The position numbers were made by a program, and so were the translations under genes. From Lachnospiraceae bacterium (GTDB lineage Bacteria > Bacillota > Clostridia > Lachnospirales > Lachnospiraceae), in assembly GCA_017552985.1 (NCBI GenBank), contig JAFZNO010000052.1:1-39041 (forward strand): a DNA stretch of 39,041 bases. Reading direction: 5' to 3'. The first letter of the stretch is position 1. The number at the start of each line of letters is the position of its first letter. Below the pieces are notes generated by a model, which ran no database searches, was not told the origin of the DNA, and saw only the letters and a list, made by a program, of their open reading frames with translations. Below, piece after piece: positions 6,388 to 24,264 of this stretch.

Positions 6388-6490
6388 AACAGTATCCTCC
6401 TCTCAACAACCCCCTCGTTCAAGCAAGCATCCCACTTTCTTTATTATTTAATTGCAGCAATTTTCATTTTTACTCACTTAATATTTTTAA
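6388..6490 (-). promoter_or_regulatory. Conserved leader/promoter region of the small protein A - giant 3 unit
   Basis: Minus-strand sequence here aligns with the region before paralog B. GTGAGTAAA (6477-6469) and TGCAATTA (6456-6449) lie 90 and 69 bases upstream of the GTG, exactly as in the other unit. AAAGAAAGTG and GAGGGGG are also shared. The elements probably include the promoter. I cannot assign -35/-10 boxes securely; ATGAAA followed by TAAAGA is one option, and an ECF-type promoter with a TGAAAAT-like -35 is another. Confidence 0.5.
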
Positions 6491-6500
6491 GTTGAATGAT

Positions 6501-6548
6501 AAAAAAGAAATGATTTCAACGCGGCAAACGCCACGTCGAAACCATTTC
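6501..6548 (-). terminator. Rho-independent terminator after giant 2
   Basis: On the minus strand GAAATGGTTTCGACGTGGC, a GTTT loop, and GCCGCGTTGAAATCATTTC form a 19-bp stem with a few G-U or mismatched pairs, followed directly by six T. It lies about 35 bases past the stop of giant 2 and just before the leader of the next unit, so it separates the two transcripts. Confidence 0.85.
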
Positions 6549-6583
6549 TCTTTATCCCCTCATATGATTTACTTCATGAAAAA

Positions 6584-9500
6584 TTAGTACTTCAGCACCT
6601 GTCCTGCCCTGATAAAGTCAGGATTCTTGATCTTGTTTACGTCCACGAGATACTTCTGCTTCACGTGCAGCTTTCTTGCGATCCTGCTCAGGGTGTCGCC
6701 GCTCTTTACGACGTAAATGCCGGAAATCTCACTGGTTGCCACTTCTGCCTCCGCCTTGCCGTAAGTGCAGTAGAGGTAAACGGGACCGTACCACTCAACG
6801 CCTTCCACCGTCTTTACGATCTTGCCTGGCATCGTCACGCTATACTTCTCGTTCTCATACACGTAATCAAATATCAGCGTTATGTCCGGATGATCCTCCA
6901 GCGTCTTCAGGATGTCCTTCGGCAGTGAAGTTCCCTTGTTCCAGTAGACGCTCTGTTCTCCGCCAAGCGCGATCGCGTACCGGAGCCTTTCGCGGAGCTC
7001 ATCCAGGTAATCTCCGTATTCGTTCGTTACGACCGTCGTGCTTCCGCCGGAATCCTTCTTGTTCTCCTTGAAGGTTGCCTTGTAAGTTGCCTCTCCCGTT
7101 ACTGCCGCGGGCGTTACGTCCCAGCCCGTGAAGGTATAGGTATAATCTGCCGTTTCTGCCTTTACTGCGTCAGCGTGGGTCGGTACCTCGCCGTACTCAA
7201 CGATCGTCTCGTCGATCAGGCTTCCGTCGTCCATCAGCCAAGTGATCTTGTAGCCGTTCGTCAGCTCGCCAAAGGTTGCCTTGTAGGTTGCCTCTCCCGT
7301 TACTGCCACGGGCGCCTTGTCCCATCCGGTGAATATGTAATTGTGTTCCGCCGTATTCTTCTTCACTGCGTCCGCGTGGGTCGGTACTTCGCCGTACTCC
7401 ACGGTGGTCTCGTCGATCAGGCTTCCGTCATCCATCAGCCAGGTGATCTTGTAGCTGTTCACGCTGTCTGAGAAGACTGCCTTATACTCTGCTTCTCCCA
7501 CCACGGCCTTCACGCTCGGCGTCCAGCCTGAGAAAACATAAGTCTTCTCAGCCGTTGCCTTCTTCGTAACACTCTCGTGAACCGGAATCTCGCCGTACTC
7601 CACGGTGGTCTCGTCGATCAGGCTTCCGTCATCCATCTGCCAGGTGATCTTGTAGCTGTTCTTCGCCTTGCTGAAGGTTGCCTTGTAAGTTGCCTCTCCC
7701 GTTACCGCCACGGGCGCTTTGTCCCATCCCGTGAAGGTATAGGTATATTCAGCCGTTGCCTTCTTCGTTGCGTCCGCGTGGGCCGGTACCTCGCCGTACT
7801 CCACGGTGGTCTCGTCGATCAGGCTTCCGTCATCCATCTGCCACGTGATCTTGTAGCTGTTCTTCGTCTCGTTGAAGGTTGCCACGTAGGTCGTGTCTCC
7901 CGTTACCTTCACGGGCGTTTTGTCCCATCCGGTAAAGGTGTAGGAAAACTCAGCCGTTGCCTCCTTCGTTGCGTCCGCGTGGGTCGGAACCTTGCCGTAC
8001 TCCACGGTGGTCTCGTCGATTAGGCTTCCGTCATCCAACAACCAAGTAATCTTGTAACTGTTTGTCGAATCCGCAAAGGTTGCCGTATAAACCGCCGTAC
8101 CCGTCACTGCAACGACGTTCTTGTCCCAACCCTGGAAAACAAACGTCTTTTCTGTCGTCGCGGTCTTCTTGGGCGTTTCGCCGGCATACACGGGTACTTC
8201 ACCGTAAGCAATTTCCGTGCTCTGTAATACCGTGCCGTCCTCGTTTACAAAGGTAATAAAATATTTCCGCTTTACCGTGTTATAAGTTGCCGAATACGTA
8301 GCCTCACCGGTTACGGCCGTAACCGCAGGACTCCATCCCTTGAAGGGATACATATTCTCATCCGTGGAACCCTTAACCGGCGTCACGCTCGCATATGCGG
8401 GAACGGTGCCGTACTCCACTTCACTAGAGAACAATTCGCTTCCGTTATCATCCTGGAACGTAATGACGTATTTCCTCAAAATTTCCTTATACGTTACCTT
8501 GTAGGTTGCCTTGTCCGTTACTGCCTCAAGTTCTTTATCCCAACCGTCAAATTCATACTTATACTGATTTGTTTCTGCTTTATCAGGAATGGTGCCTTCG
8601 AATTTAGGCATTTTCCCATATTCCACTTCGCTGCTCTGCAATACGTTTCCATTCTCGTCAACGAACTGGATCTCGTATTTATTCAGAATATCCTCATAGG
8701 TTGCGGTATAGGTAGCCGTTCCTGCAACTGCTTCAAGTTCTGCATCCCAAGCCTTAAACTTATAGGAATACTGCTGCGTTGCCTCTTTCTTAGGCTCCTT
8801 GCCGGCATAAACGGGCATTTCGCCATAAGTTACTTCACTGCTGTAAAGCTCGCTTCCATCCTCATTTAAGAACGTGATAACGTATTTCATCTTCTGGAAC
8901 TCTGCGGAAACCGTAGCATCTCCCTCAGGCATGGTAAAAGTATAGGTATTCTCATCAACCTTCGCCGCGTCAACCGTTGTCGTTCCAGCCGTCACTGTCA
9001 GAGACTTCAGCTCATAGTGTTCCTCCGCCTCTACGGTCACGGTAACCGACGTTCCTTTCTCTGCAACCATCGGGGCATTCACGCTTCCGTTTTGAATGCC
9101 AGTTGCCACGTTAACGTGATAATAGTCCGCAGGAACCAACGTTCTGCCTGCAAGCGCACTCTTGTTGGCATCCTCTGTCTTTCCAAAAAGCGTTCCGTCG
9201 TTTGCATCCTTAAAGCCGCACAAAAGCTTTACGGTACCGTCGTAAGAATCAGCCTTTACGGACATGCTCTCTGCCGTCTCTGCACTACTTCCGATGGTAA
9301 CGGTGGTACCCGTTCCATCTTGTCCAGCTCCGATGCCTGCGCTTCCGGTTCCGCCAACGGCATTTATCTTTCCTCCCGTGATGATAACTTCAATGCCTTC
9401 GGATTCAAAGCCGCCGCCAATGCCTGCACCGCTTTCGCCGTAATCTTTGTCAGTTCCGCCGGTGGCATTAACTACGCCGCCGTTAATCAGGACCTTTCCG

Positions 9501-12500
9501 CCTTTGCAACAGCCATAACCGCCGCCAATGCCTGCAGCCCTTTCACCGCCAACGGCTGTCACAACGCCTCCGTTAATGGTAATCGTACCAACGTTTACGT
9601 ACCATCTTCCGCTTCCGATTCCCGCTCCGGAAGATGCGCCTGTTGCTATTACGTTACCGCCATTGATGGTAATGTCACCGGCACTTTTATATTCCCTACT
9701 GCCAAGGCCTGCCGCACCGTATTCAACGAAAGCTGAGCCATCATAGACTTCGCCGGCAATTAACGTTCCTGCACCCGCCCCTTCACTCTGGGCCCAGATG
9801 GTCAGACCGTTACCCGCTTCTACCGTAACGCCTCTCACGGCAGTCAAAGTTGCGCCATCACACAAAATCAGATTCACGTTACCATCGATGACAATGCGAT
9901 CAGAAGTCTGATCTCCGATCCGGACGTCGCCGCGAACCGCATACCAGCCCGTTTCGAGTTTCGTTTGATTCGTTAACAACGCATAATCATCCTGATACTG
10001 GATGCGTTCGCTACCGGATTTCGTGGGATCAATATAATTGATGGCATTCGCCACCTTAAACTTTGCCCAAACGCTTACCGTGCCGTTAGGCATCGTAAAG
10101 GTGATCACGTTGTCGCTTCGCTGGAACGAAACTTCCCTGCCGTCAGCGTCTTTCACCGTGATCTCATGAAGCGCAAAGTCCTGAGCCGGTGTTGCAATCA
10201 GCGTAACCTTGTCACCAGGCTGAGCTGCTTGATAAAGGTTTTCAGCCGTCACCCCGCCATTGGTAATGCCTTTATCCACGGTAATCGCATAACCGGTACC
10301 CGGCTTCAGCGTCGTACCTTTCAACTGCTCGATCAATTCATAGTTGTCTTTTGCATTCCCAGGAACAAAGACCTTTTTCCCATCCGCAGAACTATTATCG
10401 ACAAATGTCTGCCTGAAGGTTACGTCACCAACGTAAGCGTCTGCCTTGACGCTCGGAAGGGAAGTGTTGGAATTGTTATGATCAAATACAATGCTACAAT
10501 ATTTTCCGCCAATCTTCGAAACGCCCTGAATGGTTCCTCCGTCAATCGTAATGGTGTCTCCGACAGTCGCAACAAAACTGCCCGAATCTCCCGTACCAAT
10601 GGCAATATTGTCGGTTCCCATGCCTGCTTTTACGTCTTTAAGCACGACGGTTCCCGTCACGTGAATCTTACCGGCTCTGCTTCTTGCACCACCACCGATA
10701 CCAGCTGCGCCAGTACCGCCAGTCGCTGAAATAGTTCCGCCGCCCAAGACCGTGGTTCCGCCACTGCAGTTCCCGCCGCCGCCAATGCCTGCCGCGCCCT
10801 CGCCGCCAGTCGCCGAAATATCACCGCCATAAATTTCAATGTTTCCGCTGCACACTAATACTCGCTTGTGATCAGAACCAATATAAATGCCACTGCCGAT
10901 TCCGGCCTGTTCCTTAGAACCCGTGGTGATCAGTTTACCTTTCTTATCTCCCGTAGACTGTGCATAAATTTTTAGTGAATTGCCCTCCCTTACGTTGATG
11001 CCACTCGTTGTCGTAAGCGTTGCGCCATCACACAGGATCAGCTTAACGTCTCCCGTAACCGTTACCAGATCGGAGATCGTAACGTTTCCGCTTACCACGT
11101 ACCAGCCATCCTTGCCATTTGATCCAGTAAAGGTCGTCGTATTGCCCTTCACTTCTTCACCCTCGACAGGGTTGCTAACTTTGCCATTCTCGTCAAGATA
11201 AAACGCTTTCGGTTCATACTTAAGCGTTTTCCCTGCAATGTCTTTGATCTGTTTGTCCGTCAACTTACCGGTATATATAGTTCCGGTTCCGACACTAAAC
11301 ATACATCCGTCAGCAATGGTAACGCTTCCGTTATAACTTGATGATTCTATGGAAATGGAATCCCTGGTTGCATTCACGTAAGAAAGCGCAGTGGTTACGT
11401 TTCCCCCTGTACGATTTCCAATCCCCGCGGCATTATATCCGCCAAAAGCATGGATCTCGCCGCCGGAAATATGAATATTTACGGGCTCTGGAGTTGTAGA
11501 ATCTCCAGAGCCGATGCCGGCTCCATACCGTCCGCCATAGGCATAGACAATTCCGCCGGTAATAGTAATGTTTGCGCCATTACCGGTTACTGCACCGATG
11601 CCCGCAGAGTTAATTCCTCCCTTTGCGTAAATATTTCCTCCGTTAATCAGTATCATTTCAACGGTATGGCCATTTCCCTCAGAGTACCCGAGGCCAATAC
11701 CCGCTGACGTTAAATCCTCCTTATCCAGGTTCGCCTTAATCGTACCATTATTTATGATAATGGCGGGCGCCTCTCCATCTCTGCCGCCGCCGATGCCCGC
11801 ACCGTTACTGCAACTCGTCGTTATTGTGCCATTGTTGATGACAACTTTGCCACCCTTACTATTTTCTCCGCCGCCGATACCTGCACCGCCAACTTCGTTT
11901 TTCAAGTTCAACACGCCACCGTTGATCGTGATTGTTTTGTTACCAAAATCACCATCGTAGCCAGATCCTATGTTCGCTCCAAAACAACTTGTTGAATTAA
12001 TGTTTCCGCCATTAATAATGATGTCTATTCCGCCGGAATGTGCACCGCTTCCTATTGACGCTCCCTGATTACCTATGGGCGTTATGTCGCCGCCATTGAT
12101 AGTAATCGTTCCAGATGCAGTACCTGCTCCTTTTCCGCCGCCAATGGCAGCGCCATCTTTACCTGCCGTTGCCGTAATCTTCCCGCCATTTATTGTTATT
12201 GACTTCGCCCATTGACCGGTACCGCCGCCAATAGCCGCAGCTTTAGCTGCTCCAGTTGCCGAAATCTCGCAACCGTTAATGGTGATGGGACCTGCATCCC
12301 ATTCAATGTCAGAGCCAATGGCTGCGCGGTCTCCATCAGCCGAACAAACCAATTTTCCCTTATTCTCACTAGACTGCGCCCAAATGGTCAAACTGCCTTC
12401 ATTTCCAACGCTAATTCCTTTTTCGCAAGTCAGCGTCGCGCCGTCGCAAATAATTAGATTGACGTTGGCAGTGATCAAAACTCTGCGCGTAAAGGTATAA

Positions 12501-13027
12501 TCTTCTTTTACGACATACCACGTATACGGGAATCCGTTCCATTGATAGTCAAGTCCCCATATGTCCTGCGTGGACACGTCATTACATGAGGTATCAGCCT
12601 TCCAGTCTCTTACTCCCGTAACGGGATTATAATAATAGATTTTGTACTCATCCGTCACGGCAATCTCATATTCCCTGCCATCCAGGACCACCTTCATCCA
12701 TTCCGCGCTGGAAAAGGGTTGACGAGCCGTAACAATCCACTCACCATTTTTATCTTCTGCCGAAAACAGTTTTTCATTGCTGACTGACACGGAGCCAATC
12801 TCGCCCTCTAATCCCAGAAAATCCAAAATTTCCCTCAAAGAAGCGCTGGAATCGCCCGCCATGACGAATTCACTGTCATCATACGTGAATTCCACGGTAT
12901 ACGGAGCGTCTTCGTCCGCACGTACCTCTGATTCCTTTGCACTAACCATCGCACTTCCCGCCGGCCAAATGACGCCTAAGATCAGCGCCAACGTCAGAAG
13001 CATTACAATCCTTTTTCCTGTCTTCAA
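6584..13027 (-). CDS. Giant secreted surface protein 2 (beta-solenoid, nine InlB-type repeats, C-terminal LysM)
   Basis: 2147 aa. The start is TTG at 13027, supported by AGGAGGT eight bases upstream and by the signal peptide that begins there (KTGKRIVMLLTLALIL, cleavage near 30). A small beta domain (about 42-127) precedes three blocks of TINGG / AGIGGG solenoid (about 155-600, 650-900, 1080-1280). These are separated by divergent InlB-type segments ending in FTMPNGTVS and FTMPEGDATVS. Nine repeats of 67-69 residues follow (1381-1991), then a ~110-residue conserved module (YLDELRERL, LGGE, KTLEDHP) and a LysM domain in the last ~43 residues (YVVKSGDTLSRIARKL). LysM implies non-covalent attachment to peptidoglycan. 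The gene is 49 bases after giant 1, with no terminator seen between them. It is probably an adhesin or cell-surface scaffold; the ligand is unknown. Confidence 0.92.
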   Translation of the reverse strand: MKTGKRIVMLLTLALILGVIWPAGSAMVSAKESEVRADEDAPYTVEFTYDDSEFVMAGDSSASLREILDFLGLEGEIGSVSVSNEKLFSAEDKNGEWIVTARQPFSSAEWMKVVLDGREYEIAVTDEYKIYYYNPVTGVRDWKADTSCNDVSTQDIWGLDYQWNGFPYTWYVVKEDYTFTRRVLITANVNLIICDGATLTCEKGISVGNEGSLTIWAQSSENKGKLVCSADGDRAAIGSDIEWDAGPITINGCEISATGAAKAAAIGGGTGQWAKSITINGGKITATAGKDGAAIGGGKGAGTASGTITINGGDITPIGNQGASIGSGAHSGGIDIIINGGNINSTSCFGANIGSGYDGDFGNKTITINGGVLNLKNEVGGAGIGGGENSKGGKVVINNGTITTSCSNGAGIGGGRDGEAPAIIINNGTIKANLDKEDLTSAGIGLGYSEGNGHTVEMILINGGNIYAKGGINSAGIGAVTGNGANITITGGIVYAYGGRYGAGIGSGDSTTPEPVNIHISGGEIHAFGGYNAAGIGNRTGGNVTTALSYVNATRDSISIESSSYNGSVTIADGCMFSVGTGTIYTGKLTDKQIKDIAGKTLKYEPKAFYLDENGKVSNPVEGEEVKGNTTTFTGSNGKDGWYVVSGNVTISDLVTVTGDVKLILCDGATLTTTSGINVREGNSLKIYAQSTGDKKGKLITTGSKEQAGIGSGIYIGSDHKRVLVCSGNIEIYGGDISATGGEGAAGIGGGGNCSGGTTVLGGGTISATGGTGAAGIGGGARSRAGKIHVTGTVVLKDVKAGMGTDNIAIGTGDSGSFVATVGDTITIDGGTIQGVSKIGGKYCSIVFDHNNSNTSLPSVKADAYVGDVTFRQTFVDNSSADGKKVFVPGNAKDNYELIEQLKGTTLKPGTGYAITVDKGITNGGVTAENLYQAAQPGDKVTLIATPAQDFALHEITVKDADGREVSFQRSDNVITFTMPNGTVSVWAKFKVANAINYIDPTKSGSERIQYQDDYALLTNQTKLETGWYAVRGDVRIGDQTSDRIVIDGNVNLILCDGATLTAVRGVTVEAGNGLTIWAQSEGAGAGTLIAGEVYDGSAFVEYGAAGLGSREYKSAGDITINGGNVIATGASSGAGIGSGRWYVNVGTITINGGVVTAVGGERAAGIGGGYGCCKGGKVLINGGVVNATGGTDKDYGESGAGIGGGFESEGIEVIITGGKINAVGGTGSAGIGAGQDGTGTTVTIGSSAETAESMSVKADSYDGTVKLLCGFKDANDGTLFGKTEDANKSALAGRTLVPADYYHVNVATGIQNGSVNAPMVAEKGTSVTVTVEAEEHYELKSLTVTAGTTTVDAAKVDENTYTFTMPEGDATVSAEFQKMKYVITFLNEDGSELYSSEVTYGEMPVYAGKEPKKEATQQYSYKFKAWDAELEAVAGTATYTATYEDILNKYEIQFVDENGNVLQSSEVEYGKMPKFEGTIPDKAETNQYKYEFDGWDKELEAVTDKATYKVTYKEILRKYVITFQDDNGSELFSSEVEYGTVPAYASVTPVKGSTDENMYPFKGWSPAVTAVTGEATYSATYNTVKRKYFITFVNEDGTVLQSTEIAYGEVPVYAGETPKKTATTEKTFVFQGWDKNVVAVTGTAVYTATFADSTNSYKITWLLDDGSLIDETTVEYGKVPTHADATKEATAEFSYTFTGWDKTPVKVTGDTTYVATFNETKNSYKITWQMDDGSLIDETTVEYGEVPAHADATKKATAEYTYTFTGWDKAPVAVTGEATYKATFSKAKNSYKITWQMDDGSLIDETTVEYGEIPVHESVTKKATAEKTYVFSGWTPSVKAVVGEAEYKAVFSDSVNSYKITWLMDDGSLIDETTVEYGEVPTHADAVKKNTAEHNYIFTGWDKAPVAVTGEATYKATFGELTNGYKITWLMDDGSLIDETIVEYGEVPTHADAVKAETADYTYTFTGWDVTPAAVTGEATYKATFKENKKDSGGSTTVVTNEYGDYLDELRERLRYAIALGGEQSVYWNKGTSLPKDILKTLEDHPDITLIFDYVYENEKYSVTMPGKIVKTVEGVEWYGPVYLYCTYGKAEAEVATSEISGIYVVKSGDTLSRIARKLHVKQKYLVDVNKIKNPDFIRAGQVLKY
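7057..8887 (-). repeat. Nine tandem InlB-type (Listeria-Bacteroides-like) repeats in giant 2
   Basis: Nine units of 67-69 codons, each with the pattern (Y)KITW-DDGS-, a VEYGEVP-like turn, YTFTGWD and VTGEATYKATF. Units 5 to 9 are closest to one another (MDDGSLIDETTVEYGEVP), while units 1 to 4 are more diverged. This suggests growth of the array at its C-terminal side. Confidence 0.9.
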
Positions 13028-13076: not shown

Positions 13077-16000
13077 TTAATAATTTAGTAACTGATTCAC
13101 CCAAATCAGGTTCGGATTTTTGATCAAATTCTTCTTCACCAGCCAGTCCACCGTCACGTTGAACCTGCGGGCAAGCTTCGAAAGGTTATCACCGCGCCTT
13201 ACCACGTACGTTCCCTTCACGGCTCCGTCAGAATCCTTTACGTTAACTCGCAAATTATAGCGACTGTACAGGTTCAGCGGTCCGTACCAGGAAACCGTGG
13301 GATCCGTCTCCACGTCCTTTCCGCAGATAGTCACCTCGTAGCTCACGTTTTTGTACTCATACTTGAAGATCAGCGTTATCTGCGGGTGATCCTCCAAGGT
13401 CTTCAATACGTCATAGGGCAGTCCCGTTCCCTTCGCCCACGTTATCGTCCGCTCGCCGCCAAGGGAGATAGCGTATTGAATCATCTTCCGCAGTTCGTCG
13501 AGGTAATCTTCCGGATCCCCGGAGGGAGGCGTCAGACTGCTGCTTGCCTTCTTTGTGGCGCTGAAGGTTGCCACGTAGGTCGCAGGTCCTGTCACCATGG
13601 AAGGCGTCTCTTTCCAGCCGGTAAAGGCGTAAACCCATTCCTCCGTCTCTGCCTTGTCTGCGTCAGCGTGAGAAGGCGTCTCGCCGTATGCGTAAGTCTC
13701 CACGTCGATCACGCTGCCGTCATCCATCTTCCAAGTGATCTCATAACTTCTCTTTGTCTGGTCAAAGGTTGCCACGTACGTTGCGGGTCCCGTCACTGCC
13801 AAAGGTGCTGCGTCCCAACCGGTAAAGGCATACGTAAACTCTGCCGTTGCCTTCTTTCCGGGATCGCCGTGGGTGGGCACCGTACCGTATTCCACCTGGG
13901 TTACGTCGATCACGCTGCCGTCATCCATCTTCCAGGTGATCTCATAGCTTCTCTTCGTCTCGCTAAAGGTTGCCACGTAAGTAGCCGTTCCCTGAACTGC
14001 TACGGGCGTCACGTTCCAACCGTTAAAGGCATACGTAAACTCATCCGTAGCCTCCTTCCCGGGATCCTCGTGGGTGGGCACCGTGCCGTATTCCACCTGG
14101 GTTACGTCGATCAGTTTCCCCTCATCCGTCAGCCAGGTGACGTTGTACTTTTTCTTGGTTCCCTCAATGACTGCCTGATAGGTTGCCTTGTCCGTCACGG
14201 TTGCAATTTCAGGACTCCAACCCTTGAATTCATAAGAATATTCGTCCGTCTCCGTCTTTGTTAAGGCTGCGTGGGTGGGTACGGTTCCGTACTCCACTTG
14301 GGTAACGTCGATCAAGTTCCCTTCGTCGTCCAGCCAAGTAATCTCATAAACGTTCGTGCTGTCAGCGAAAACTGCCTGATACTCCGCTGCAGCCTTGGCT
14401 GCCGTGATGCCAGGCGTCCAGCCGGAGAATACGTAAGTCTTCTCCGCCGTTGCTTCCTTCGACGCGTCAGCGTGGGTGGGCACCACGCCATATTCCACTT
14501 CCGTGACGTCGATCACGTTTCCGAGATCATCCTTCCAAGTGATGACAAAGCACTTCTTTGTTCCCTCAAAGGTTGCGGCATAAACGGCATTGCCTTCTAC
14601 CGCCTTGGGCGTCTCATTCCATCCCTTGAAGGTAAATTCGTACTCCTCCGTCTCCTGCTTCTTCGGATCCTCGTGGGTGGGCACCACGCCAAACTCCACC
14701 ACCGTCTTGTCGATCAGAGTTCCGTCATCCATCAGCCAGCTGATCTCATAGCTTCTCTTATTCTCGCTAAAGGCAGCCGTATAGGTAGCCGTTCCCTGTA
14801 CTTTAGCAGGCGTTACGTCCCAACCCGTGAACGTGAAAGTAAATTCTGCCGTCTCCTGCTTCTTCGGATCAGCGTGCGTCGGCACAACGCCGTATTCCAC
14901 CTGGGTTACGTCGATCACGCTGCCGTCATCCATCTTCCAGGTGATCTCATATTTTCTCTTAGTCTCTTGGAAAATGGCGGTATATTCCGCGTCACCGTCA
15001 ATCGCTTCCGGAGTCTTATCCCAACCCGTAAAGGTATAGGTAAACTCCTCCGTTTCCTTCCGCGTGGGCTCCTCACCCACATACTGCGGAACCGTTCCCT
15101 GGGGAACGTTCTCATCCGTCTTCAGTACTTTACCGTCGTAATTCTTCCACGTAACCACGTACTTCGGGATCTGCGTCCACTGTGCCTTTAAGGTTACGTC
15201 ACCATATTTTCCAGTCAGGGACGCACCTGCCGCATACAATTCATCTGCTTCCAGCCAATTGCCTGCATCGGAAACCACTTTCCAACCGTCAAAGAAGTAA
15301 TCTTCACGAGTCGGATCAGGAAGCTTTTCCATGCTTTCAATCGTATATTCCAATGAATCGATCGGGTCAGCTCCGTTCGCGTCAAAGATGATCTCGTAGG
15401 TCTCCAACTCCCTGAAGGCGTAAAGCGTTGCATCGCCATTAATCTGATATGCGTCACCCAATCCAAAGCTCTGACCCTTGCCGTCTGCCTGCGTATTCCA
15501 ATTCCTCAAAACGTAGCCAATCACTTCCGTCGACGTTTTCGGAAGGTTAAAGCTGCTCTGGTTTTCTCCCTCCTGAATCAGGCCCGATTCACCCTCATTT
15601 ACGTTAGGAACAAGCGTGACCTTCGGCAATCTAGTCGTATTTGTCATTAAGCAAAACTCGGAAAGTTCAAAGTCGTCACCCGCACCAAAGCCCCAGAACG
15701 TCAGTCTGAAGAAACAATACTCTTCATTATTGGAGATCATTTTTACGGCCTGCGATCTTGCATTCCCAGGCAAGGAAGTATCATTAGTTACTTCATCCAG
15801 AACTACCCATTCGCCGTCCTGACTCTTTTTTGCCTCTAACTTCCAGTTCTTCGGATTTCTGCCAGGATCATTCCACGAAGCATTACCGGTGACAAAGACG
15901 TAGCCGTTAGGGATTACGTAATCCTTTGTCACAAATTCCACGGAAAACGTATCATCCTGGGCCAGTCCGGAGACGTACCATGCCGTATTTTCATCATTGT

Positions 16001-19000
16001 CGAACATCTTGTCATAGGTTGCTCCCAAAGCTCCCGCGTGACTTTCCGGTTCAAACGGGACGTAACCGTGATATGACGTAGTCCACTGAGCGAAAAGCGT
16101 GCTCTTTGCAGGCACGACGTCGCCCTCGCGATAGCTTTTTCCGCTTCCATCCTGTGCGTCATTCCAACTGGTAAAATAAAATCCATTCCTCTTTACGCTT
16201 AAACTTGGAATTTTTAACTCTTGGGAAGCGACTTCCGAGATCTTAAGCTCTGCCTTCAGGACTCCAATCACGATTGGATTGCCTTCTCCGCCATTCGGTA
16301 ATAACCGCGCGTAGTTGCAAAAGCTCTGAAGCAACGGATAATCAGGACCCAAGCACCAGGGCCGGCCAAAACTGTCCATGTCCCACTTTTTGAAATTCTT
16401 GGGATCCCGGAACTCTTCTTTGCGTAAGCTTTCGCATCTCGTACCTGATTCGGAGCCCTTTTTATTTCCCACAACGTCAAGAAAGTCAACGTCAAATGCA
16501 TAACAATCCGTCAGAGCCGACGCTTTACCTTGTCCAAGCACGCCCCCAATGCGATTATTTGTCTGGTAATGCCCCAGGTATTCTATTTCTCCGTAATGAA
16601 AACTCCGTTCAATTCTGCCATTGTTTTTGTTATCGATGACTCCGGCTACGCCGCCGCCATAACCGCCATCCTCGCTAACCTTTCCCACGTGCCCGCAGGC
16701 GTAGATTTCTCCGCCCTCAAGCTTACCTACAATACCGCCGCCGCCAGACTCATTATACCCGTCATTTGAAACGGTTCCAAAGGCCATGCTCCTGATAACG
16801 GTATAACCTCTGCCTGCGATTCCTCCCGCAAAGGAAGTCATCGAAGTGGATTGGGCGGAAACAGTTCCTGAAAACAGGCAATCACTTACGTAACCTTCAT
16901 TCAGTCCGACAATGCCTCCCACGTTACATTCGAAGCGTTGGTTGCCGGAAACCGTCCCGAAAAATTGACAATTTATGATCTCTCCGTTGCTGCGTCCGGC
17001 AATTCCTCCCGTGAACTCTTCATTATTCTTTACCTCACCGTATACGATAAGGTTCCTTATGCTGGAACTATATCCGCATTCTCCAAACAGCCCCGCCGAC
17101 TCAGAATCCGAGTCCACGGACAATCCCTTGATCACGTGGTTTTTCCCGTCAAAGATTGCTTTAAATTCTCTCCGTTCCATTCCAATGGGATCCCAATCGA
17201 TCCCCGTTAAATCCAGATCCGCCTTCAGGCAAATCCGCGTGCCGGCTTGCACGTACCCGTTGTTGACGCCTTCGGCAAAACTTAAGAATTCGGCAACGTT
17301 ATTAATGTAATAGGGAAGAGTTACGCCGCTTCCGCCAGTTCCGCCGGTTCCTCCGGTTCCGCCGGCATTAGAAAGTTTTCTAAGCTGTGGTACTCCGTCG
17401 CGGATCTCCCACATATTCGAGAAATCCCAGTGCTCAAACTTTGAACTGTCCGAAAACCTGCTCTCATAATGATAATGGGTATAACCGTCTCCTCCCAGAT
17501 CCTGTCCGCTCTTATATCCGTTCATCGCATGTTTTGCGCAGGGAGACCACCAGTAACAATCCTCCATTACTACGGTAGTACCCGCATCCCGGGGTCCGCA
17601 TAAACCGCCGGCATGACGCTCATTCGCACAATCGACACCATAAGTATCGGACGTCAAACCGGTTTTGGGTGCTTTACAGTAGCATCTCGTCATCTTAATG
17701 TTTTCGCCATAGAAGCGCCCAACGATGCCGCCAACTCTATAATCTCCGTAGATGATCCCTCGGTTATAGCAGTCAGATACTTCTCCGTTCGTAAGTGCTC
17801 CAATAATGCCTCCGATGAATTCCTTCTCACCAACGACCGTGCCCGTATTGCCACAGCCCAGAATGGTGATGTATCCCGCATTACCCGTAATTCCGCCCAC
17901 GTGGCCCACGCCATAAACGGATCCTTCATTAAAATCATTCTCAAGGCCGGCGCCACCGTCAAACGTTCTTCCCGCAATGCCGCCCACGCGATCTTTTCCG
18001 TGAATTTCACCTTTATTAACACTGTATTTAACGTTTGCGTTGGTCGAACCAATAATGCCTCCGGTATAATCCTCGCCCACGACTTTTGCCGTATTCGTGC
18101 AATAAAGAACCGTCGTGTCGCCAATGGCTCTGGGGAAATTGTATTCGGCTATTCCCGCAATGCCGCCGGTATAAGACGTTCCCGTTACGTTTCCCTTGTT
18201 GAGGCAGCCGCTGACGCCTTGGCTGTAATTCATGTAACCCACAATGCCGCCGGTCTTCTTTGTTCCCGTAATCACGCCGGCATTCGTGGATGAAGTAATG
18301 GAAGCGTTGGAAGAAAGCGTTCCCGCGACGCCGGCTGATTCCTCGTCACCGTCAACGCTGCCCCCATTGTAGCAATTCTTTATCTCAGTGCCCTTTACCT
18401 CTCCTGCAATGCCTCCCGTATGGCTTCCTCCGCTAACTTTTCCTCCGTTGGTGCAATCCTCAATGACGCCCGTCTCTTGCGCGGTATTGAGGAACTTTCC
18501 GGCAATGCCGCCGGCGTAGGAATGCTTAGAATTATTGATCACGCCATTGTTAACGCAATCGGTCAGGGATATGTCGCCACTTGCGTAACCAACGACTCCA
18601 CCCACGCATTCGTCATTACTGCTGACGTTGCCCTTGTTTGAGCAGCTCCATATGACGCCACCTGTATAGGATCCCGCGATTCCGCCAATATTTTTTCCCT
18701 CGGCGGTGACGCTGCCGTTGTTCAAACTGCGCCTGATCGCCCCATAGTTGTGACCCGTAATGCCTCCAATGGTTTCCGATCCGCCACTTTGCTTAATGGC
18801 CGCTTCATTCGTACAAGTATCGATCGTTCCACTGTTTTCTCCGGTAATTCCGCCAGCACAGCCCTTTGCCTCAACGGATCCCTGGCTGTAACTTTTTCGT
18901 ATGACGGATTGATTCTGTCCGGCAATGCCTCCGACCCGTTCGTTTCCCTGAACGATACCGTCAAAATTACATTCCTCAATGGTTCCGGCGTTTACGGCAG

Positions 19001-19466
19001 TGATTCCGCCAACGTAATTATAACCCTTAACAATTCCGCTTACGTACACTTCCTTCACCGTACCGGTAACGTACCCAAATAAGCCGCCCCTGGATGAAGA
19101 GGAAACATAGAGCCCGTATATTTCATTTCCTTCTCCCAATAAAGTACCGGCAAATGGACGTTGCTCACTTCCGATGGGCGTCCAGCTTCCAAGGCTTTCC
19201 CCACATACGGATGACAGATCCAGACTTCTGTCTAGCAAAAAGTACTTCCCCCCGTAGGAATTCCCCGCGTTTACGTATCTTTCCAACGTCTGCAGGTCCG
19301 CTACGTCTTCGATCAAATACGGATTTTCTGCCGAACCGTTTCCCGTCCACGTACCGCCTGCCGCATGAGCAATTGCTCCAAAACAGCATGCAGTGATTGC
19401 AAAAATTGCTGCCACAACTGCCGCACTCCATAGGTGACGTTTAACCGATCTCCACTCTTTTGTCAT
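13077..19466 (-). CDS. Giant secreted surface protein 1 (GLUG solenoid, discoidin-like, InlB-type repeats, LysM)
   Basis: 2129 aa from the ATG at 19466, which has GGGGAGGAAG at good spacing; a TTG six bases further upstream is too close to that site. The signal peptide ends near AHA-AGG. Residues about 50-690 and 715-1035 carry GLUG-type solenoid coils (VGGIAG, GGITG, CYN/CTN), joined by a GGTGGTGG linker. An InlB-type segment follows, then a discoidin/F5-8C-like domain (about 1150-1290; YDKMFDNDENTAWYV, NPKNWKLEAK, FFRLTFWG), another InlB-type segment, eight ~67-residue repeats, the YLDELRKMI / LGGE / KTLEDHP module, and a terminal LysM (YVVRRGDNLSKLARRF). The discoidin domain suggests glycan binding. 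The gene starts two bases after small protein B ends, so the two are coupled. Confidence 0.92.
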   Translation of the reverse strand: MTKEWRSVKRHLWSAAVVAAIFAITACCFGAIAHAAGGTWTGNGSAENPYLIEDVADLQTLERYVNAGNSYGGKYFLLDRSLDLSSVCGESLGSWTPIGSEQRPFAGTLLGEGNEIYGLYVSSSSRGGLFGYVTGTVKEVYVSGIVKGYNYVGGITAVNAGTIEECNFDGIVQGNERVGGIAGQNQSVIRKSYSQGSVEAKGCAGGITGENSGTIDTCTNEAAIKQSGGSETIGGITGHNYGAIRRSLNNGSVTAEGKNIGGIAGSYTGGVIWSCSNKGNVSSNDECVGGVVGYASGDISLTDCVNNGVINNSKHSYAGGIAGKFLNTAQETGVIEDCTNGGKVSGGSHTGGIAGEVKGTEIKNCYNGGSVDGDEESAGVAGTLSSNASITSSTNAGVITGTKKTGGIVGYMNYSQGVSGCLNKGNVTGTSYTGGIAGIAEYNFPRAIGDTTVLYCTNTAKVVGEDYTGGIIGSTNANVKYSVNKGEIHGKDRVGGIAGRTFDGGAGLENDFNEGSVYGVGHVGGITGNAGYITILGCGNTGTVVGEKEFIGGIIGALTNGEVSDCYNRGIIYGDYRVGGIVGRFYGENIKMTRCYCKAPKTGLTSDTYGVDCANERHAGGLCGPRDAGTTVVMEDCYWWSPCAKHAMNGYKSGQDLGGDGYTHYHYESRFSDSSKFEHWDFSNMWEIRDGVPQLRKLSNAGGTGGTGGTGGSGVTLPYYINNVAEFLSFAEGVNNGYVQAGTRICLKADLDLTGIDWDPIGMERREFKAIFDGKNHVIKGLSVDSDSESAGLFGECGYSSSIRNLIVYGEVKNNEEFTGGIAGRSNGEIINCQFFGTVSGNQRFECNVGGIVGLNEGYVSDCLFSGTVSAQSTSMTSFAGGIAGRGYTVIRSMAFGTVSNDGYNESGGGGIVGKLEGGEIYACGHVGKVSEDGGYGGGVAGVIDNKNNGRIERSFHYGEIEYLGHYQTNNRIGGVLGQGKASALTDCYAFDVDFLDVVGNKKGSESGTRCESLRKEEFRDPKNFKKWDMDSFGRPWCLGPDYPLLQSFCNYARLLPNGGEGNPIVIGVLKAELKISEVASQELKIPSLSVKRNGFYFTSWNDAQDGSGKSYREGDVVPAKSTLFAQWTTSYHGYVPFEPESHAGALGATYDKMFDNDENTAWYVSGLAQDDTFSVEFVTKDYVIPNGYVFVTGNASWNDPGRNPKNWKLEAKKSQDGEWVVLDEVTNDTSLPGNARSQAVKMISNNEEYCFFRLTFWGFGAGDDFELSEFCLMTNTTRLPKVTLVPNVNEGESGLIQEGENQSSFNLPKTSTEVIGYVLRNWNTQADGKGQSFGLGDAYQINGDATLYAFRELETYEIIFDANGADPIDSLEYTIESMEKLPDPTREDYFFDGWKVVSDAGNWLEADELYAAGASLTGKYGDVTLKAQWTQIPKYVVTWKNYDGKVLKTDENVPQGTVPQYVGEEPTRKETEEFTYTFTGWDKTPEAIDGDAEYTAIFQETKRKYEITWKMDDGSVIDVTQVEYGVVPTHADPKKQETAEFTFTFTGWDVTPAKVQGTATYTAAFSENKRSYEISWLMDDGTLIDKTVVEFGVVPTHEDPKKQETEEYEFTFKGWNETPKAVEGNAVYAATFEGTKKCFVITWKDDLGNVIDVTEVEYGVVPTHADASKEATAEKTYVFSGWTPGITAAKAAAEYQAVFADSTNVYEITWLDDEGNLIDVTQVEYGTVPTHAALTKTETDEYSYEFKGWSPEIATVTDKATYQAVIEGTKKKYNVTWLTDEGKLIDVTQVEYGTVPTHEDPGKEATDEFTYAFNGWNVTPVAVQGTATYVATFSETKRSYEITWKMDDGSVIDVTQVEYGTVPTHGDPGKKATAEFTYAFTGWDAAPLAVTGPATYVATFDQTKRSYEITWKMDDGSVIDVETYAYGETPSHADADKAETEEWVYAFTGWKETPSMVTGPATYVATFSATKKASSSLTPPSGDPEDYLDELRKMIQYAISLGGERTITWAKGTGLPYDVLKTLEDHPQITLIFKYEYKNVSYEVTICGKDVETDPTVSWYGPLNLYSRYNLRVNVKDSDGAVKGTYVVRRGDNLSKLARRFNVTVDWLVKKNLIKNPNLIWVNQLLNY
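13548..15166 (-). repeat. Eight tandem InlB-type repeats in giant 1
   Basis: Eight units of 67-70 codons with EITWKMDDGSVIDVTQVEYG, a VPTH turn, FTGWD and a TATYVATF end. They are homologous to the array in giant 2, and the last two units are the most similar to each other. Both arrays sit directly before the same 156-residue C-terminal region. Confidence 0.88.
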
Positions 19467-19468
19467 GA

Positions 19469-19813
19469 TCAATCTTCCTCCCCCCGCTCAGGTTGTTTTG
19501 CTGAAATGCTTTCATTTTTCTCCTTGTTCCGGTAGTACTTGATGCTCAGCGTGATCGCCACTCCAAAGGCAAAGGCGATCAGTGCCGTCAGCACGTAACT
19601 GCCTGCCTCTGCCGGCATCAGGAACGAGCCGTAGAGCGTCTCGCTTCCCGCTTTGCCGGCGCCGGTAAATACGCTCAACGTCACCAGAAGCACCAGCGCA
19701 AGACTGACCGTCGAAGCCGACAGGACGTATCTTACCCTTTGCTCATGTTTTTGTTTCATTCTTTTCCCTCGCCGCTTGATCTCCTCAAACGCCTCATCTT
19801 CTCTATATTTCAC
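19469..19813 (-). CDS. Small two-helix membrane protein B
   Basis: 114 aa from the GTG at 19813, chosen because GGAAGGAGG precedes it and because paralogs A and C align from the same GTGAAATAT; a GTG at 19873 would add 20 residues but has no matching support. Layout: charged cytoplasmic start (FEEIKRRGKRMKQKHEQRV), helix at about 31-50, outside loop with SETLYGSFLMPAEAG, helix at about 73-91, charged tail. The loop and second helix are identical or nearly so to protein A. Its stop lies two bases from the start of giant 1. Function unknown; the tight pairing with a giant surface protein, seen twice, is the main clue. Confidence 0.85.
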   Translation of the reverse strand: MKYREDEAFEEIKRRGKRMKQKHEQRVRYVLSASTVSLALVLLVTLSVFTGAGKAGSETLYGSFLMPAEAGSYVLTALIAFAFGVAITLSIKYYRNKEKNESISAKQPERGEED

Positions 19814-19925
19814 GGCAGTTTCCTCCTTCCGGCAATCCCCCTCGCTCAACAACCGTTTCACTTTCTCTATCACTTAATTGCATCAGTTCTCAAATTTACT
19901 CACGTAAATTTTTCAGTTTTTCGCA
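19814..19925 (-). promoter_or_regulatory. Conserved leader/promoter region of the small protein B - giant 1 - giant 2 unit
   Basis: The minus strand carries GTGAGTAAA (19903-19895) and TGCAATTA (19882-19875), 90 and 69 bases upstream of the GTG start, the same spacing as before protein A. It follows a terminator, so the unit must have its own promoter here. TTGAGA (or TGAGAAC in an ECF reading) upstream of TGCAATTA is a candidate -35. No -10 box can be fixed by eye. Confidence 0.5.
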
Positions 19926-19928
19926 AAC

Positions 19929-19967
19929 AAAAAAGAGAGGACTTGTCGCTTTACCAAGTCCTCTCTC
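19929..19967 (-). terminator. Rho-independent terminator after the sigma/PrsW block
   Basis: AGAGAGGACTTG (19934-19945) and CAAGTCCTCTCT (19955-19966) form a 12-bp stem with a 9-base loop. On the minus strand the stem is followed by six T. It ends the transcript of small protein C and separates the regulatory block from the surface-protein unit. Confidence 0.88.
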
Positions 19968-19987
19968 ATCTTTCCCGTATTTTTAGT

Positions 19988-20302
19988 CTACTCTTTCTTT
20001 TCTCCGCCATCCTTTATTCGGCCGTGGGTCACGGACAATGCCCCCAAAACGCCTACAAAAAAAGCAAGCAATGCCGTCAGAATATATCCTCCCGACTCAG
20101 CCGAAAGAAGAAATGCTCCATAGACCGTCTGCGTTCCCTCCGCGCTTGTCCCCGCGAACCTTCCCAACACGCCAAACAGCGCAATGGCAAGTATTGCGGT
20201 CGATCCATACAAAATGCGCCTCACCCGCTGTTCATGCCTTTTCCGGATTTTTGATCCGCGTTTTTTTATCTCTTCAAATCCTTCTTCTGCGTTATATTTC
20301 AC
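19988..20302 (-). CDS. Small two-helix membrane protein C, last gene of the sigma/PrsW block
   Basis: 104 aa with a GTG start (GTGAAATAT, AGGAGG upstream), overlapping the PrsW-like gene by four bases. It is a clear paralog of A and B: FEEIKKRG, KRHEQRVRRIL, a helix at about 31-50, YGAFLLSAESGGY in the loop, and a second helix at about 73-92. It differs from A and B far more than they differ from each other. Placed after an ECF sigma factor and a PrsW-type protease, it could be the membrane substrate or anti-sigma partner of that pair. However, its cytoplasmic N-terminus of about 30 residues is short for a known anti-sigma domain. That role is inference. Confidence 0.82.
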   Translation of the reverse strand: MKYNAEEGFEEIKKRGSKIRKRHEQRVRRILYGSTAILAIALFGVLGRFAGTSAEGTQTVYGAFLLSAESGGYILTALLAFFVGVLGALSVTHGRIKDGGEKKE

Positions 20303-20949
20303 GACGACGGCCTCCTTTCTTCCTTCTTTCCCAAATAATGATATGTCTGCGGATACAGGATCAGTGCGCCCAAAAGCGGTAATGCGTATCCTACGTACGT
20401 GGTGATCCCTGATTTTGATACTAATAAATTATACGTCGCATGGAACGTCATTGCAAGAGATAATGCTCCGATAATTCCGGAAACGGTAAAAACTTTATAT
20501 TGTTTCAAAAGATGAAGTCCTACGGACAGTGCCACCATGCTCACAAGATGCATGACGCCCACAACGGATCCCCTGATCAGGACGTAAGCAAGACTCTGCG
20601 CTCCCCTGGACAGAACGTAACAACAGTTTTCAAAGGTTGCAAAACCCGTGCCAATTCCAACTGCAACCAACAAGAGCTCCACGTCCTTCGGCTCAAAGAG
20701 CATCAGATAAAACAATACCGGCAAAAGTTTCATGATCTCCTCTATGATCGGCGAGAGAAAAATGGCCGTATCCTCTGCCCCCATGCCTGAGATCAGTTCA
20801 ATGTAACCGCCTACGTAAGCCGCCAAAAGACAAGCCGCCATGCCGGAGAGAAACGAAGCCACAAAACGTCTGGCACTGCCCTGCAGAAACATTAAGGCGA
20901 TCACAAGGGGCACCGTTATGCAAATCAAAACGTTTTCCGCGTAAATCAT
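20299..20949 (-). CDS. PrsW-family intramembrane protease
   Basis: 216 aa, about seven hydrophobic helices. The family motifs are present: EE at 70-71 (SPIIEEIMK), FATFEN with E107, a histidine at 134 (GVMHLVS) and FHATYN with H170. These are the expected metal-binding and catalytic positions of PrsW glutamic/metallo-type membrane proteases. Known relatives cut an anti-sigma factor (RsiW in Bacillus, RsiT in Clostridioides) to release an ECF sigma factor. The ECF sigma gene two genes upstream fits that role. It overlaps both neighbours by four bases. Length is close to the usual PrsW size. The substrate cannot be read from the sequence; the small proteins A, B and C are candidates. Confidence 0.85.
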   Translation of the reverse strand: MIYAENVLICITVPLVIALMFLQGSARRFVASFLSGMAACLLAAYVGGYIELISGMGAEDTAIFLSPIIEEIMKLLPVLFYLMLFEPKDVELLLVAVGIGTGFATFENCCYVLSRGAQSLAYVLIRGSVVGVMHLVSMVALSVGLHLLKQYKVFTVSGIIGALSLAMTFHATYNLLVSKSGITTYVGYALPLLGALILYPQTYHYLGKKEERRPSS

Positions 20950-21776
20950 GAGTTCTCCATCCCTTCTGCCGCACCGTCAGTCTCTCCTCGCAACCGTTTC
21001 ACGGCGATCCATTCGATCGGAATCGTCAACGTATTGATGGCAAGCGCAATGTTATAATAGATTTCATCGCTCATGTACGTCACGAGAAGCGTCCACAGGA
21101 ATACGGTTATCGAAAGATACAACGTCTTCTCGCCGTAACTCTTATCCCTTAACGACCTGTAATTCTTCCAAAGCAGCCATGCGGTAATTCCGTGCGCTAT
21201 CACGTAACTGCCCACGTTCATAACGTTCCACGCCGTTTCATTCTCAGTAATAAGCATTACCGTCTGCATGAGCAGGATCCCCACGCTCATAACCACTGCA
21301 AGCATTCTTTCTCCGTCCGTGTCCCACGCACGCACGTACTCCAGCCCTCTGACTAGCAGATACGCCAGATAGACGTAGGGCAATCCAAACAATATGTCCT
21401 GCACCCACTCACCTGACCACGCGATCCACAGTGCAATGCTGGCACTCATATACAGGATCGTAAAAAGAAACGCCCGCGGCATCCATTTTTTTCTCTTACC
21501 CGAAAGTGCCTCCAGCCCTGCAGACACAAGAAGAAGCATGGCGCACTCGGCAATCTCGTCCACCGTAAAGGGCATCCTCTCCTCTGGCCGGACGATACAA
21601 AAAATCAGGCAATAGAGATCACTCAAAAACAAACTCATCATGGCAAACGTAAAAAATGCCGGGAAGATGCCATTCCTACCCTTCTTCATAAGACCGGCGG
21701 TCGATATGACGATCGGAACCACAATGGCCGCCTGGAGGCTCAGCAAAAACGCCTCCATGATTGTTAAATATCCCAT
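20946..21776 (-). CDS. Polytopic membrane protein between the sigma factor and PrsW
   Basis: 276 aa with about eight predicted membrane helices and short loops; the C-terminal tail is charged. It starts inside the end of the sigma gene (13-base overlap) with GGAAGGGAC upstream, and its stop overlaps the PrsW start, so the three proteins are made in step. I do not recognise the family, and no catalytic motif stands out. As the only other membrane protein between sigma and protease, it may be a sensor or the sigma-binding partner, but nothing in the sequence proves it. Confidence 0.8.
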   Translation of the reverse strand: MGYLTIMEAFLLSLQAAIVVPIVISTAGLMKKGRNGIFPAFFTFAMMSLFLSDLYCLIFCIVRPEERMPFTVDEIAECAMLLLVSAGLEALSGKRKKWMPRAFLFTILYMSASIALWIAWSGEWVQDILFGLPYVYLAYLLVRGLEYVRAWDTDGERMLAVVMSVGILLMQTVMLITENETAWNVMNVGSYVIAHGITAWLLWKNYRSLRDKSYGEKTLYLSITVFLWTLLVTYMSDEIYYNIALAINTLTIPIEWIAVKRLRGETDGAAEGMENS

Positions 21777-22345
21777 GAATACTTTGTCCCTTCCAATTTT
21801 CCCTTCAGCGAAACCTTCGCCCTCGCCGAAAGGTTATAAACCTGTTTCTCCGATTTTTTCATGACCCGTCCGATTTCCGACGGCGTCATGTTTTCAAAAT
21901 AAGTCAGGTACAATACCTGCGCATAATCCGGATGCAATGACTGCATCACCTTCCAAAGCTTCGTGTTTCTTTCATCCGCCAGCATGGCCTGTTCCGGGCT
22001 GTTGCCAAAGGATCCCATCTCTGCCATGGGCTCCGCATCCTCCCAGATCTCGGAAGGAATTTCCCTGTGCCGTCTCAAGAACATTCTCGCCTGGTTTCTT
22101 GCCACGGCATACAGCCACGTCTTGAACTCCGCGTCCTTTCTGATGGAATAATGCGCGGTTCCGGAGGCAAGAAGCGCGAACGTGTCCATCATTAATTCCT
22201 CCGCATCCTCCGCGTCCCGGACGATGCCGTACAGAAAAAAGGTCAGACTATCCTTGTGCTTTAAAAATAGAGTCCGAAGGGCTTCCTCGTCCCCCTCCCT
22301 CAAAAAGCGGATATACAGTTGTCCGTCAGCTCCAGGCTTATCCAC
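21764..22345 (-). CDS. ECF-family RNA polymerase sigma factor
   Basis: 193 aa, GTG start with GGAGGAAG upstream. Region sigma-2 (about 12-93) has DAEDAEELMMDTF and FKTWLYAVARNQARMFLRR, which are core-binding and -10 recognition features. A short linker (about 94-125) is followed by region sigma-4 (about 130-186) with LHPDYAQVLYLTYFENMT and a helix-turn-helix ending KKSEKQVYNLSARAK. Length and layout are normal for an ECF sigma. The linked PrsW protease suggests release by membrane proteolysis. Likely targets are the neighbouring surface units, but no matching promoter could be confirmed by eye. Confidence 0.93.
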   Translation of the reverse strand: MDKPGADGQLYIRFLREGDEEALRTLFLKHKDSLTFFLYGIVRDAEDAEELMMDTFALLASGTAHYSIRKDAEFKTWLYAVARNQARMFLRRHREIPSEIWEDAEPMAEMGSFGNSPEQAMLADERNTKLWKVMQSLHPDYAQVLYLTYFENMTPSEIGRVMKKSEKQVYNLSARAKVSLKGKLEGTKYSWDI

Positions 22346-22364
22346 GCCTTACTTCCTCCCTGCA

Positions 22365-22529
22365 TCATACGTACTGGTCATGCTTTTTCTTATCGTGATA
22401 TTTCTCCAATATCGGCGCGATCACGTTCACGATCAGTTTCATGTCCAAGTTAAAGAAATAAATACAAAACAATAGCAGAAACAATGCCGCGATCACGGCC
22501 AAAATAATCAAAATAACGTGTAAGACCAT
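22365..22529 (-). CDS. 54-aa single-helix membrane peptide upstream of the sigma factor
   Basis: Start ATG at 22529 (VLHVILIILAVIAALFLLL follows), supported by AGAAGGAGGGG nine bases upstream. A longer reading from 22556 lacks a site. One membrane helix (about 2-25) is followed by a hydrophobic stretch and a charged tail (EKYHDKKKHDQ). It ends 19 bases before the sigma start and is probably cotranscribed with it. No family recognised. It could be a small membrane regulator of the block or an unrelated micropeptide. Confidence 0.6.
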   Translation of the reverse strand: MVLHVILIILAVIAALFLLLFCIYFFNLDMKLIVNVIAPILEKYHDKKKHDQYV

Positions 22530-24242: not shown

Positions 24243-24264
24243 CAAAATTCCCTTTCAAGTTACC

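Follow-up and report, generated by a model that had tools for sequence, protein, structure and literature searches.

The anti-sigma factor RsiW of Bacillus subtilis has a single helix and a zinc site. Its anti-sigma domain is described as class I (PMC8103513), and PrsW is reported to be the site-1 protease for RsiW in regulated proteolysis (PMC6066255, PMC8844934). RsiV is described as binding lysozyme outside the cell and as being cut by signal peptidase (PMC6066255, PMC8844934). The SigI paralogs of Clostridium thermocellum are reported to drive cellulosomal genes, and the promoters predicted for SigI6 and SigI3 include those of their own genes (PMC4711584). In the PrsW-linked polymorphic toxins, reported mainly from Gram-positives, PrsW is fused to the toxin (PMC3482391). 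Here we describe a locus from a Lachnospiraceae bacterium (GenBank assembly GCA_017552985.1, contig JAFZNO010000052.1), in which genes for an extracytoplasmic function (ECF) sigma factor, a polytopic membrane protein and a PrsW-family protease stand beside three genes for small two-helix proteins (A, B and C) and three genes for giant surface proteins. To our knowledge, the control of giant surface proteins in gut Lachnospiraceae has been little studied. We consider it rather likely that the locus encodes a dedicated PrsW-controlled ECF switch for giant surface proteins, which works with two-pass anti-sigma-like proteins, one of them placed in the target operon as feedback.

The window, that is the whole stretch of 39,041 nt that was analysed, is the entire contig C83 of a 3.86-Mb genome (G000; 98% complete, 137 contigs); G, C and L followed by a number are our handles for genomes, contigs and loci. 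All genes of interest are on the minus strand, and their order in the direction of transcription is sigma, polytopic membrane protein, PrsW, C, a hairpin, B, giant 1, giant 2, a hairpin, A and giant 3. The first four genes (sigma, 21764..22345; membrane protein, 20946..21776; PrsW, 20299..20949; C, 19988..20302) are joined by successive head-to-tail overlaps: 13 nt between sigma and the membrane protein, ATGA between the membrane protein and PrsW, and GTGA between PrsW and C. The open reading frames (ORFs) of B (19469..19813) and A (6043..6387) were confirmed; each encodes 114 aa, and C has 104 aa. B is 80% and C is 54% identical to A, and FEEIK, HEQRVR, YG[SA]FL and the start GTGAAATAT are common to the three. 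The preliminary description of this DNA had taken A, B and C for paralogous two-helix membrane proteins, had placed A and B each ahead of a giant and had put C last in the operon of sigma, membrane protein and PrsW; coordinates, paralogy and gene orders were all borne out.

A genome search with B led to two further relatives on contig C79 of the same genome. The C79 locus consists of sigma 2, a two-helix gene D overlapping it, membrane protein, PrsW, a two-helix gene E, a trypsin-like protease and a 2435-aa lipoprotein-like giant. We call the window arrangement type I and the C79 arrangement type II. D denotes the two-helix gene between sigma and membrane protein and S the two-helix gene of the target operon, here A and B and, as their type II counterpart, E; C is an S-type copy within the sigma operon. 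In type II target operons the trypsin-like protease gene lies between the two-helix gene and the giant (L006, 11079-11927; also G004, G080, G119 and G132).

We searched 121 and 138 genomes of the genus, and 397 of the family, with profiles built for the two-helix family and the membrane protein; at the class level 391 genomes were searched with the membrane-protein profile only. Many of these genomes are drafts. Matches to the membrane protein came from 10 of the 138 genus genomes, 24 of the 397 family genomes and four of the 391 class genomes, three of the four outside the family; in G188, G443 and G467, counted among the 24, the only match is a weak one inside ORFs of about 1200 codons. The first two-helix profile matched 22 of the 121 genus genomes at E ≤0.01. 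Thirteen of them, all with E-values between 1e-3 and 1e-2, were dropped as chance, and the remaining nine are all among the ten genomes with the membrane partner. For the earlier reader, a family widespread without sigma and PrsW genes would have spoken against the proposal. This was not observed: each of the 22 family-level genomes in which full-length two-helix proteins were found also has the membrane partner, detected in 21 by its profile and in G248 beside the two-helix gene.

In the fetched loci 40 PrsW/membrane-protein modules were counted by rule, three of them in other families. The sigma gene is upstream on the same strand in 39/40 modules, D stands between sigma and the membrane protein in 25/40, a C-like gene overlaps PrsW in 3/40 only, S follows within 1200 nt downstream of PrsW in 38/40, and S is itself followed by an ORF of 500 codons or more in 34/40. 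In six modules no such ORF was counted: in L166 the frame of the giant is already open ahead of S, in L038 and L177 the contig ends, in L162 it has 1.1 kb left, and module 2 of L168 and module 1 of L175 have none. By the same rule neither D nor C is present in 12/40 modules; one of these, in L168, has a D-like piece beside a sigma gene that is encoded on the other strand. The loci were picked by membrane-protein or two-helix matches, so that these genes are present by construction, which does not hold for sigma, gene order or giants; the counts omit full-length members at, for example, G215:C10 and C30, G426:C9, G270:C41, C54 and C55, G175:C39 and G148:C91. The arrangement from sigma through membrane protein and PrsW to a two-helix gene is found again in other genomes, which is more than chance. 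Literature searches, with partial coverage of journals, found no recognised description of this cassette.

Upstream of the two-helix genes we found a promoter-like element, TGAGTAAA-N13-GCAAYTAA, with constant spacing. Exact copies of the form TGAGTAAA-N13-GCAATTAA precede B (19874..19902, minus strand) and A (6448..6476, minus strand), in both cases ending 60 nt ahead of the gene, and the window contains no other site at up to three mismatches. The whole genome has four exact sites, none with one mismatch and three with two. Three of the exact sites are ahead of A, B and E; the fourth is ahead of the gene for a 1042-aa InlB-repeat giant on C45, a contig on which no sigma cassette was seen. 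Among the 138 genus genomes 23 sites at ≤1 mismatch were found in 15 genomes (a reversed-pattern control gave 16 in 16), and they occur in nine of the ten genomes with the membrane partner and in six of the 128 without it; the control matched 0/10 and 16/128, respectively. Twelve of the genus sites are exact. Eleven lie in membrane-partner genomes, each upstream of S and/or a giant, and the twelfth (G117) sits at the end of an unrelated ORF. G006, one of the nine, has a single one-mismatch site that is not near a giant, and G004, the tenth partner genome, has a 13/16 site before S. In the 397 family genomes exact sites were found only in G000 (four) and G175 (one, at S), both of which have the system; the reversed control gave three matches, in three genomes without it. 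In G046 two more tandem giants bear the element away from the cassette. Upstream of S or giants 26/39 regions score at least 12/16, a set in which the consensus-defining sequences and three regions retrieved with the motif are counted. Some of the low-scoring regions have, by eye, a diverged form with the same spacing (e.g. TGAGAGTT...GTACCTA). In G088, which is one of the six among the 128 genus genomes, has a completeness of 85% and gave no match to the partner, a 15/16 element (L112, 4324-4352) lies 180 nt before the gene of a 1690-aa surface protein (4533-9605).

Most ECF operons are described as autoregulated (PMC8103513). Upstream of the sigma genes of our modules the best scores were 8-11/16 in all 40 regions, and none reached 12/16. 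These regions had been rescanned from the profile start, because some ORF starts were too far upstream; the earlier scan had given 8-11 in 35/35. Judged by these scores the sigma gene is driven by some sequence other than this element, without autoregulation through it. TTGAAA/TATAAT-like sequences were seen by eye upstream of sigma 2 and some other sigma genes. A sigma-70 scan listed no promoter in the window before sigma, B or A.

The -10 part of the element varies with the sigma factor. In a sigma tree of 36 rows, six of them other ECF sigmas, the variants GCAATTAA, GCATTATA and GTACCTA occupy separate clades. GACACTTA is found in another clade, together with rows whose element could not be read, and GCAACTAA, GGTACTAA and near forms share one poorly resolved clade. 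Sigma distance and promoter distance were correlated (Mantel r 0.64, p 0.0001, n=25 modules with readable element), also after removal of close sigmas (r 0.63, n=19 modules); the test omits five tree sigmas (L172, L173, L174 and both of L175), and its permutation controls locus relatedness only partly. Over the genus, the fifth -10 base is T at 11/11 type I sites and C at 5/5 type II sites, counts in which some genomes are near-identical at the locus and the type II site of G077 was assigned by target genes. The same difference is seen inside single genomes (G000, G077 and G132).

Could the element be bound by another regulator or sigma factor and merely travel with the cassette? The copies before the G088 surface protein and before a protease fusion in G512, two genomes in which the partner was not found, would be in line with this. 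The fixed 13-nt spacer, the tracking of sigma clade by the -10 variants and the rarity of the element in genomes without the cassette speak against it, and we give this explanation very little probability. Because of the promoter and phylogenetic evidence, the sigma factor of the cassette very probably transcribes the two-helix/giant operons. The link drawn in the preliminary description between small proteins, sigma and PrsW is thereby supported as that of one system, by the promoter element, its connection with the sigma clade and the phylogenetic distribution. Genes, gene order, element, clade connection and the placement before giants can all be read from the DNA.

Two hydrophobic segments are present in 67/68 members of the two-helix family in the fetched loci, and the loop predicted to be outside has the conserved pattern YG[SA]xLL...GGY. 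A family tree built from chosen rows (18 D, 30 S and 3 C) separated the D rows from those of S and C, with a support of 78/96, below the tool's strong threshold. D and S thus look like an old pair. C clustered with A and B, that is in the S group, so that in the lineage of the window D appears to have been replaced in the sigma operon by an S copy. Pfam and NCBIfam scans of A, B and C gave sub-threshold matches only. These scans found no class I zinc-finger anti-sigma domain in the three proteins, which have no cysteine, and no match to PF13786 (DUF4179); no RsgI-type match was listed among the six proteins scanned. The family profile gave 17 chance-level matches to PDB sequences (best E 0.59), none of them a relative.

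Outside the cassettes the family profile matched ten places, over its first part only. In six of them the matching protein has 317-474 aa and its gene adjoins that of an ECF sigma factor, in five cases overlapping it; in the exception, L219, the protein gene is ahead of the sigma gene without overlap. In two others the family N-terminus and first helix are fused to a trypsin-like protease (L209, 2398-3456, and L210, 1987-2973, both on the minus strand and with a large gene downstream). A 30-column profile of the cytosolic part, helix excluded, ranked both fusions and four of the six sigma neighbours as the top six of 807 ORFs, a pool that includes loci chosen by the full profile, which makes the ranking a check and no independent discovery. 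One sigma neighbour (L213) carries DUF4179, a domain reported in the anti-sigma factors RsiV and BAS1627 (PMC6066255). Both protease fusions, found by protein, have the element at 15/16 directly upstream, which gives independent support to the family link and to the promoter. The position of D directly after sigma in 25/40 modules was also counted toward an anti-sigma role. Judging by position and by weak homology, the two-helix proteins are best read as sigma regulators. This part of the earlier proposal is supported by the likeness of the N-terminus to proteins encoded beside sigma genes and by the placement in the family tree.

Several observations weigh against the proposed switch. Two of the ten places (L212 and L216) are unrelated, and a basic segment followed by a helix can match by composition. 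The N-terminal matches are weak and extend over a short segment (E 3e-5 to 0.64 in the top six); the sigma neighbour L214 ranked 11th (E 2.8), L219 was not among the best 25 of the 807 ORFs, and a 502-codon ORF in L006 was also a weak match. G512 has a trypsin fusion with the element, and the membrane partner was not found there. As to the promoter, six of the 128 genus genomes without the partner still carry a site at ≤1 mismatch. Of 21 regions fetched after the consensus had been fixed (L158-L176), ten score at least 12 and 11 score at most 10/16, and five more regions (L217, L218 and L224-L226) score 9 or 10/16. Finally, the overlap of the sigma gene with that of the polytopic protein in the window fits the latter as anti-sigma factor equally well. 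The same direct overlap, the usual position of an anti-sigma gene, is seen in some other modules that lack D. Thus the polytopic protein could be both anti-sigma factor and PrsW partner, the two-helix proteins being accessory, for example escorts of the giants. This we regard as unlikely: D separates sigma from the polytopic gene in 25/40 modules, C, an S-type copy, occupies the sigma operon where D is missing, and the resemblance of the D and S N-termini to sigma-adjacent proteins points to D and S, a comparison for which the polytopic protein had no counterpart test.

The giants examined differ in their domains, which include beta-helix, GLUG, FctA, FG-GAP, collagen-like and InlB repeats. 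No domain or anchor common to them was found (LysM, lipobox-like N-terminus, SPQTG and C-terminal helix were considered), and Pfam listed no toxin domain in the 11 giants scanned. Four giants have the element with no S in front, namely the C45 giant, the G011 ortholog and two in G046. Since the giants vary in domains and ends, the switch is the constant part and the cargo looks exchangeable. No support was obtained for the suggestion of the preliminary description that each small protein signals the export or engagement of its giant partner: the giants examined share no domain or anchor, and the four promoter-bearing giants have no two-helix gene in front. A and B as sensors of their own giants were set aside on these grounds. 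A role of PrsW in export, as in the idea put forward in PMC3482391, was set aside as well, PrsW not being fused to giants here.

Another explanation is a function of the two-helix proteins as export or assembly partners of the giants, with PrsW processing them or the giants and no anti-sigma role involved. Many modules do have S immediately ahead of the giant, the two genes often sharing 4 nt, and the fusions of the S N-terminus to a trypsin-like protease are ahead of a large downstream gene. We nevertheless judge this explanation to be quite improbable, as the giants examined have no domain or anchor in common, the C45, G011 and G046 giants have the promoter and no S, and D and C are in the sigma operon, not ahead of a giant. 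In G011:C20 (L037, 10325-10582) the promoter and about the last 25 S codons persist before the giant, the remainder of S being lost. In G006 an S gene (L049, 8989-9318) and a 2968-aa giant stand by themselves, apart from the sigma cassette of that genome. In L038 (2882-3523) an S start enters an apparently unrelated ATPase-like frame at the contig end, by recombination or misassembly.

The switch that we propose would work as follows. The small two-pass proteins would hold sigma at the membrane; D or C would come from the sigma operon, and the target operon would supply S, in the window A and B, the basic cytosolic N-terminus of about 30 residues acting as a short anti-sigma segment. A signal from the envelope, for which the polytopic membrane protein may be the receiver, would lead PrsW, together with the membrane protein, to cut the two-helix proteins near the conserved outside loop, close to the second helix. 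Further proteolysis would free sigma to read the TGAGTAAA-N13-GCAAYTAA promoters. Each target operon would yield, usually, S first and then the giant, and the new S would recapture sigma and limit the output. Cleavage by PrsW, signal and feedback are proposed by analogy with known systems.

Where a module has neither D nor C, the sole anti-sigma-like protein seen would be S, encoded in sigma's own target operon ahead of the giant. Such modules may form a self-terminating switch, in which sigma, free by default or after cleavage, produces one burst of the giant and its own jailer and then stops. The number of giant surface proteins would then be metered by translation of the coupled anti-sigma protein, and the cassette would serve as a loading system of general use, with unrelated giants swapped in and out; this variant we put forward tentatively, as possible and somewhat doubtful.

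The window proteins were also compared with family models. The sigma factor (193 aa) matched PF04542 (E 2e-11; 43.7 bits, Pfam cut-off 24), PF08281 (E 4e-8, also above cut-off) and TIGR02937 (E 1e-24); it has sigma regions 2 and 4 only in about 190 aa, as ECF sigma factors do, and may already belong to a numbered ECF group. The polytopic membrane protein (276 aa), the eight-helix protein of the preliminary description, gave only sub-threshold matches in Pfam and NCBIfam scans, and its profile no match to PDB sequences. The PrsW protein (216 aa) matched PF13367 (E 7e-15; 55.5 bits, cut-off 23.5), which places it in the PrsW family, and with 25.8 bits missed the narrower NCBIfam PrsW equivalog cut-off of 225. 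EExxK and FxxxEN, the conserved acidic motifs of PrsW proteases, are present in 40/40 module PrsW proteins. A strong terminator-like hairpin with a T run (19933..19967, minus strand, z -6.1) follows C; a terminator scan permitting loops of 3-8 missed it, its loop being 9. The open frame of B reaches 19873, and the GTG at 19813 carries a Shine-Dalgarno-like AAGGAGG.

Giant 1 (13077..19472, minus strand, ~2130 aa) has GLUG and Listeria-Bacteroides repeats and a C-terminal LysM; B ends at 19469, and the giant may start at the overlapping TTG 19472 or, likelier, at ATG 19466. Giant 2 (6584..13027, minus strand, 2147 aa) has beta-helix and InlB-B-like repeats and a C-terminal LysM. It starts 49 nt downstream of giant 1, and the window scan found no promoter element of its own. 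Another terminator-like hairpin, from the hairpin scan, is downstream of it (6506..6549, minus strand). A and giant 3 overlap by ATGA (6046/6043). Giant 3 (2..6046, minus strand) leaves the contig and has at least 2015 aa, with an FctA isopeptide domain and 14 beta-helix stretches. Directly upstream of sigma is a one-helix ORF of 54 codons (MVLHVILIILAVIAALFLLLF...; 22365-22529, minus strand), with counterparts before sigma in L036 and L037. Farther upstream (22662-26202, minus strand) are two genes for 527 and 645 aa, the end of the latter GGDEF-like by eye; their counterparts upstream in L036 are 526 and 645 aa, and a gene for 526 aa is also present upstream in L041 and L042.

The locus offers a recognisable cassette and two protein families for which neither Pfam nor NCBIfam has a match above cut-off. 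Its promoter sequence, with four sites in one genome, is so specific that a regulon can be proposed solely from the DNA. What switches the giants on becomes a question testable by a two-gene reporter. As a PrsW system with small two-pass partners it could, by their short outside loop, also allow the cleavage rule to be worked out. Among known systems, SigW-RsiW-PrsW-RasP of B. subtilis is alike in combining an ECF sigma factor with a PrsW protease, whereas the candidate anti-sigma proteins here are two-pass, with A, B and C free of cysteine, and have a polytopic partner and giants as targets. The anti-sigma factors of the SigV-RsiV/DUF4179 kind also have a cytosolic N-terminus followed by a helix, and the DUF4179 protein of L213 matches the N-terminus of our family; where RsiV has its sensor domain, our proteins have a short loop followed by a second helix. 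SigI-RsgI of C. thermocellum resembles the present system in having several paralogous alternative sigmas, each with its own promoter variants, and differs in sigma family and sensor; it is not known to include PrsW or a two-helix pair. With the PrsW-linked polymorphic toxins the cassette shares a PrsW domain associated with exported proteins, whereas here PrsW is a separate gene beside sigma.

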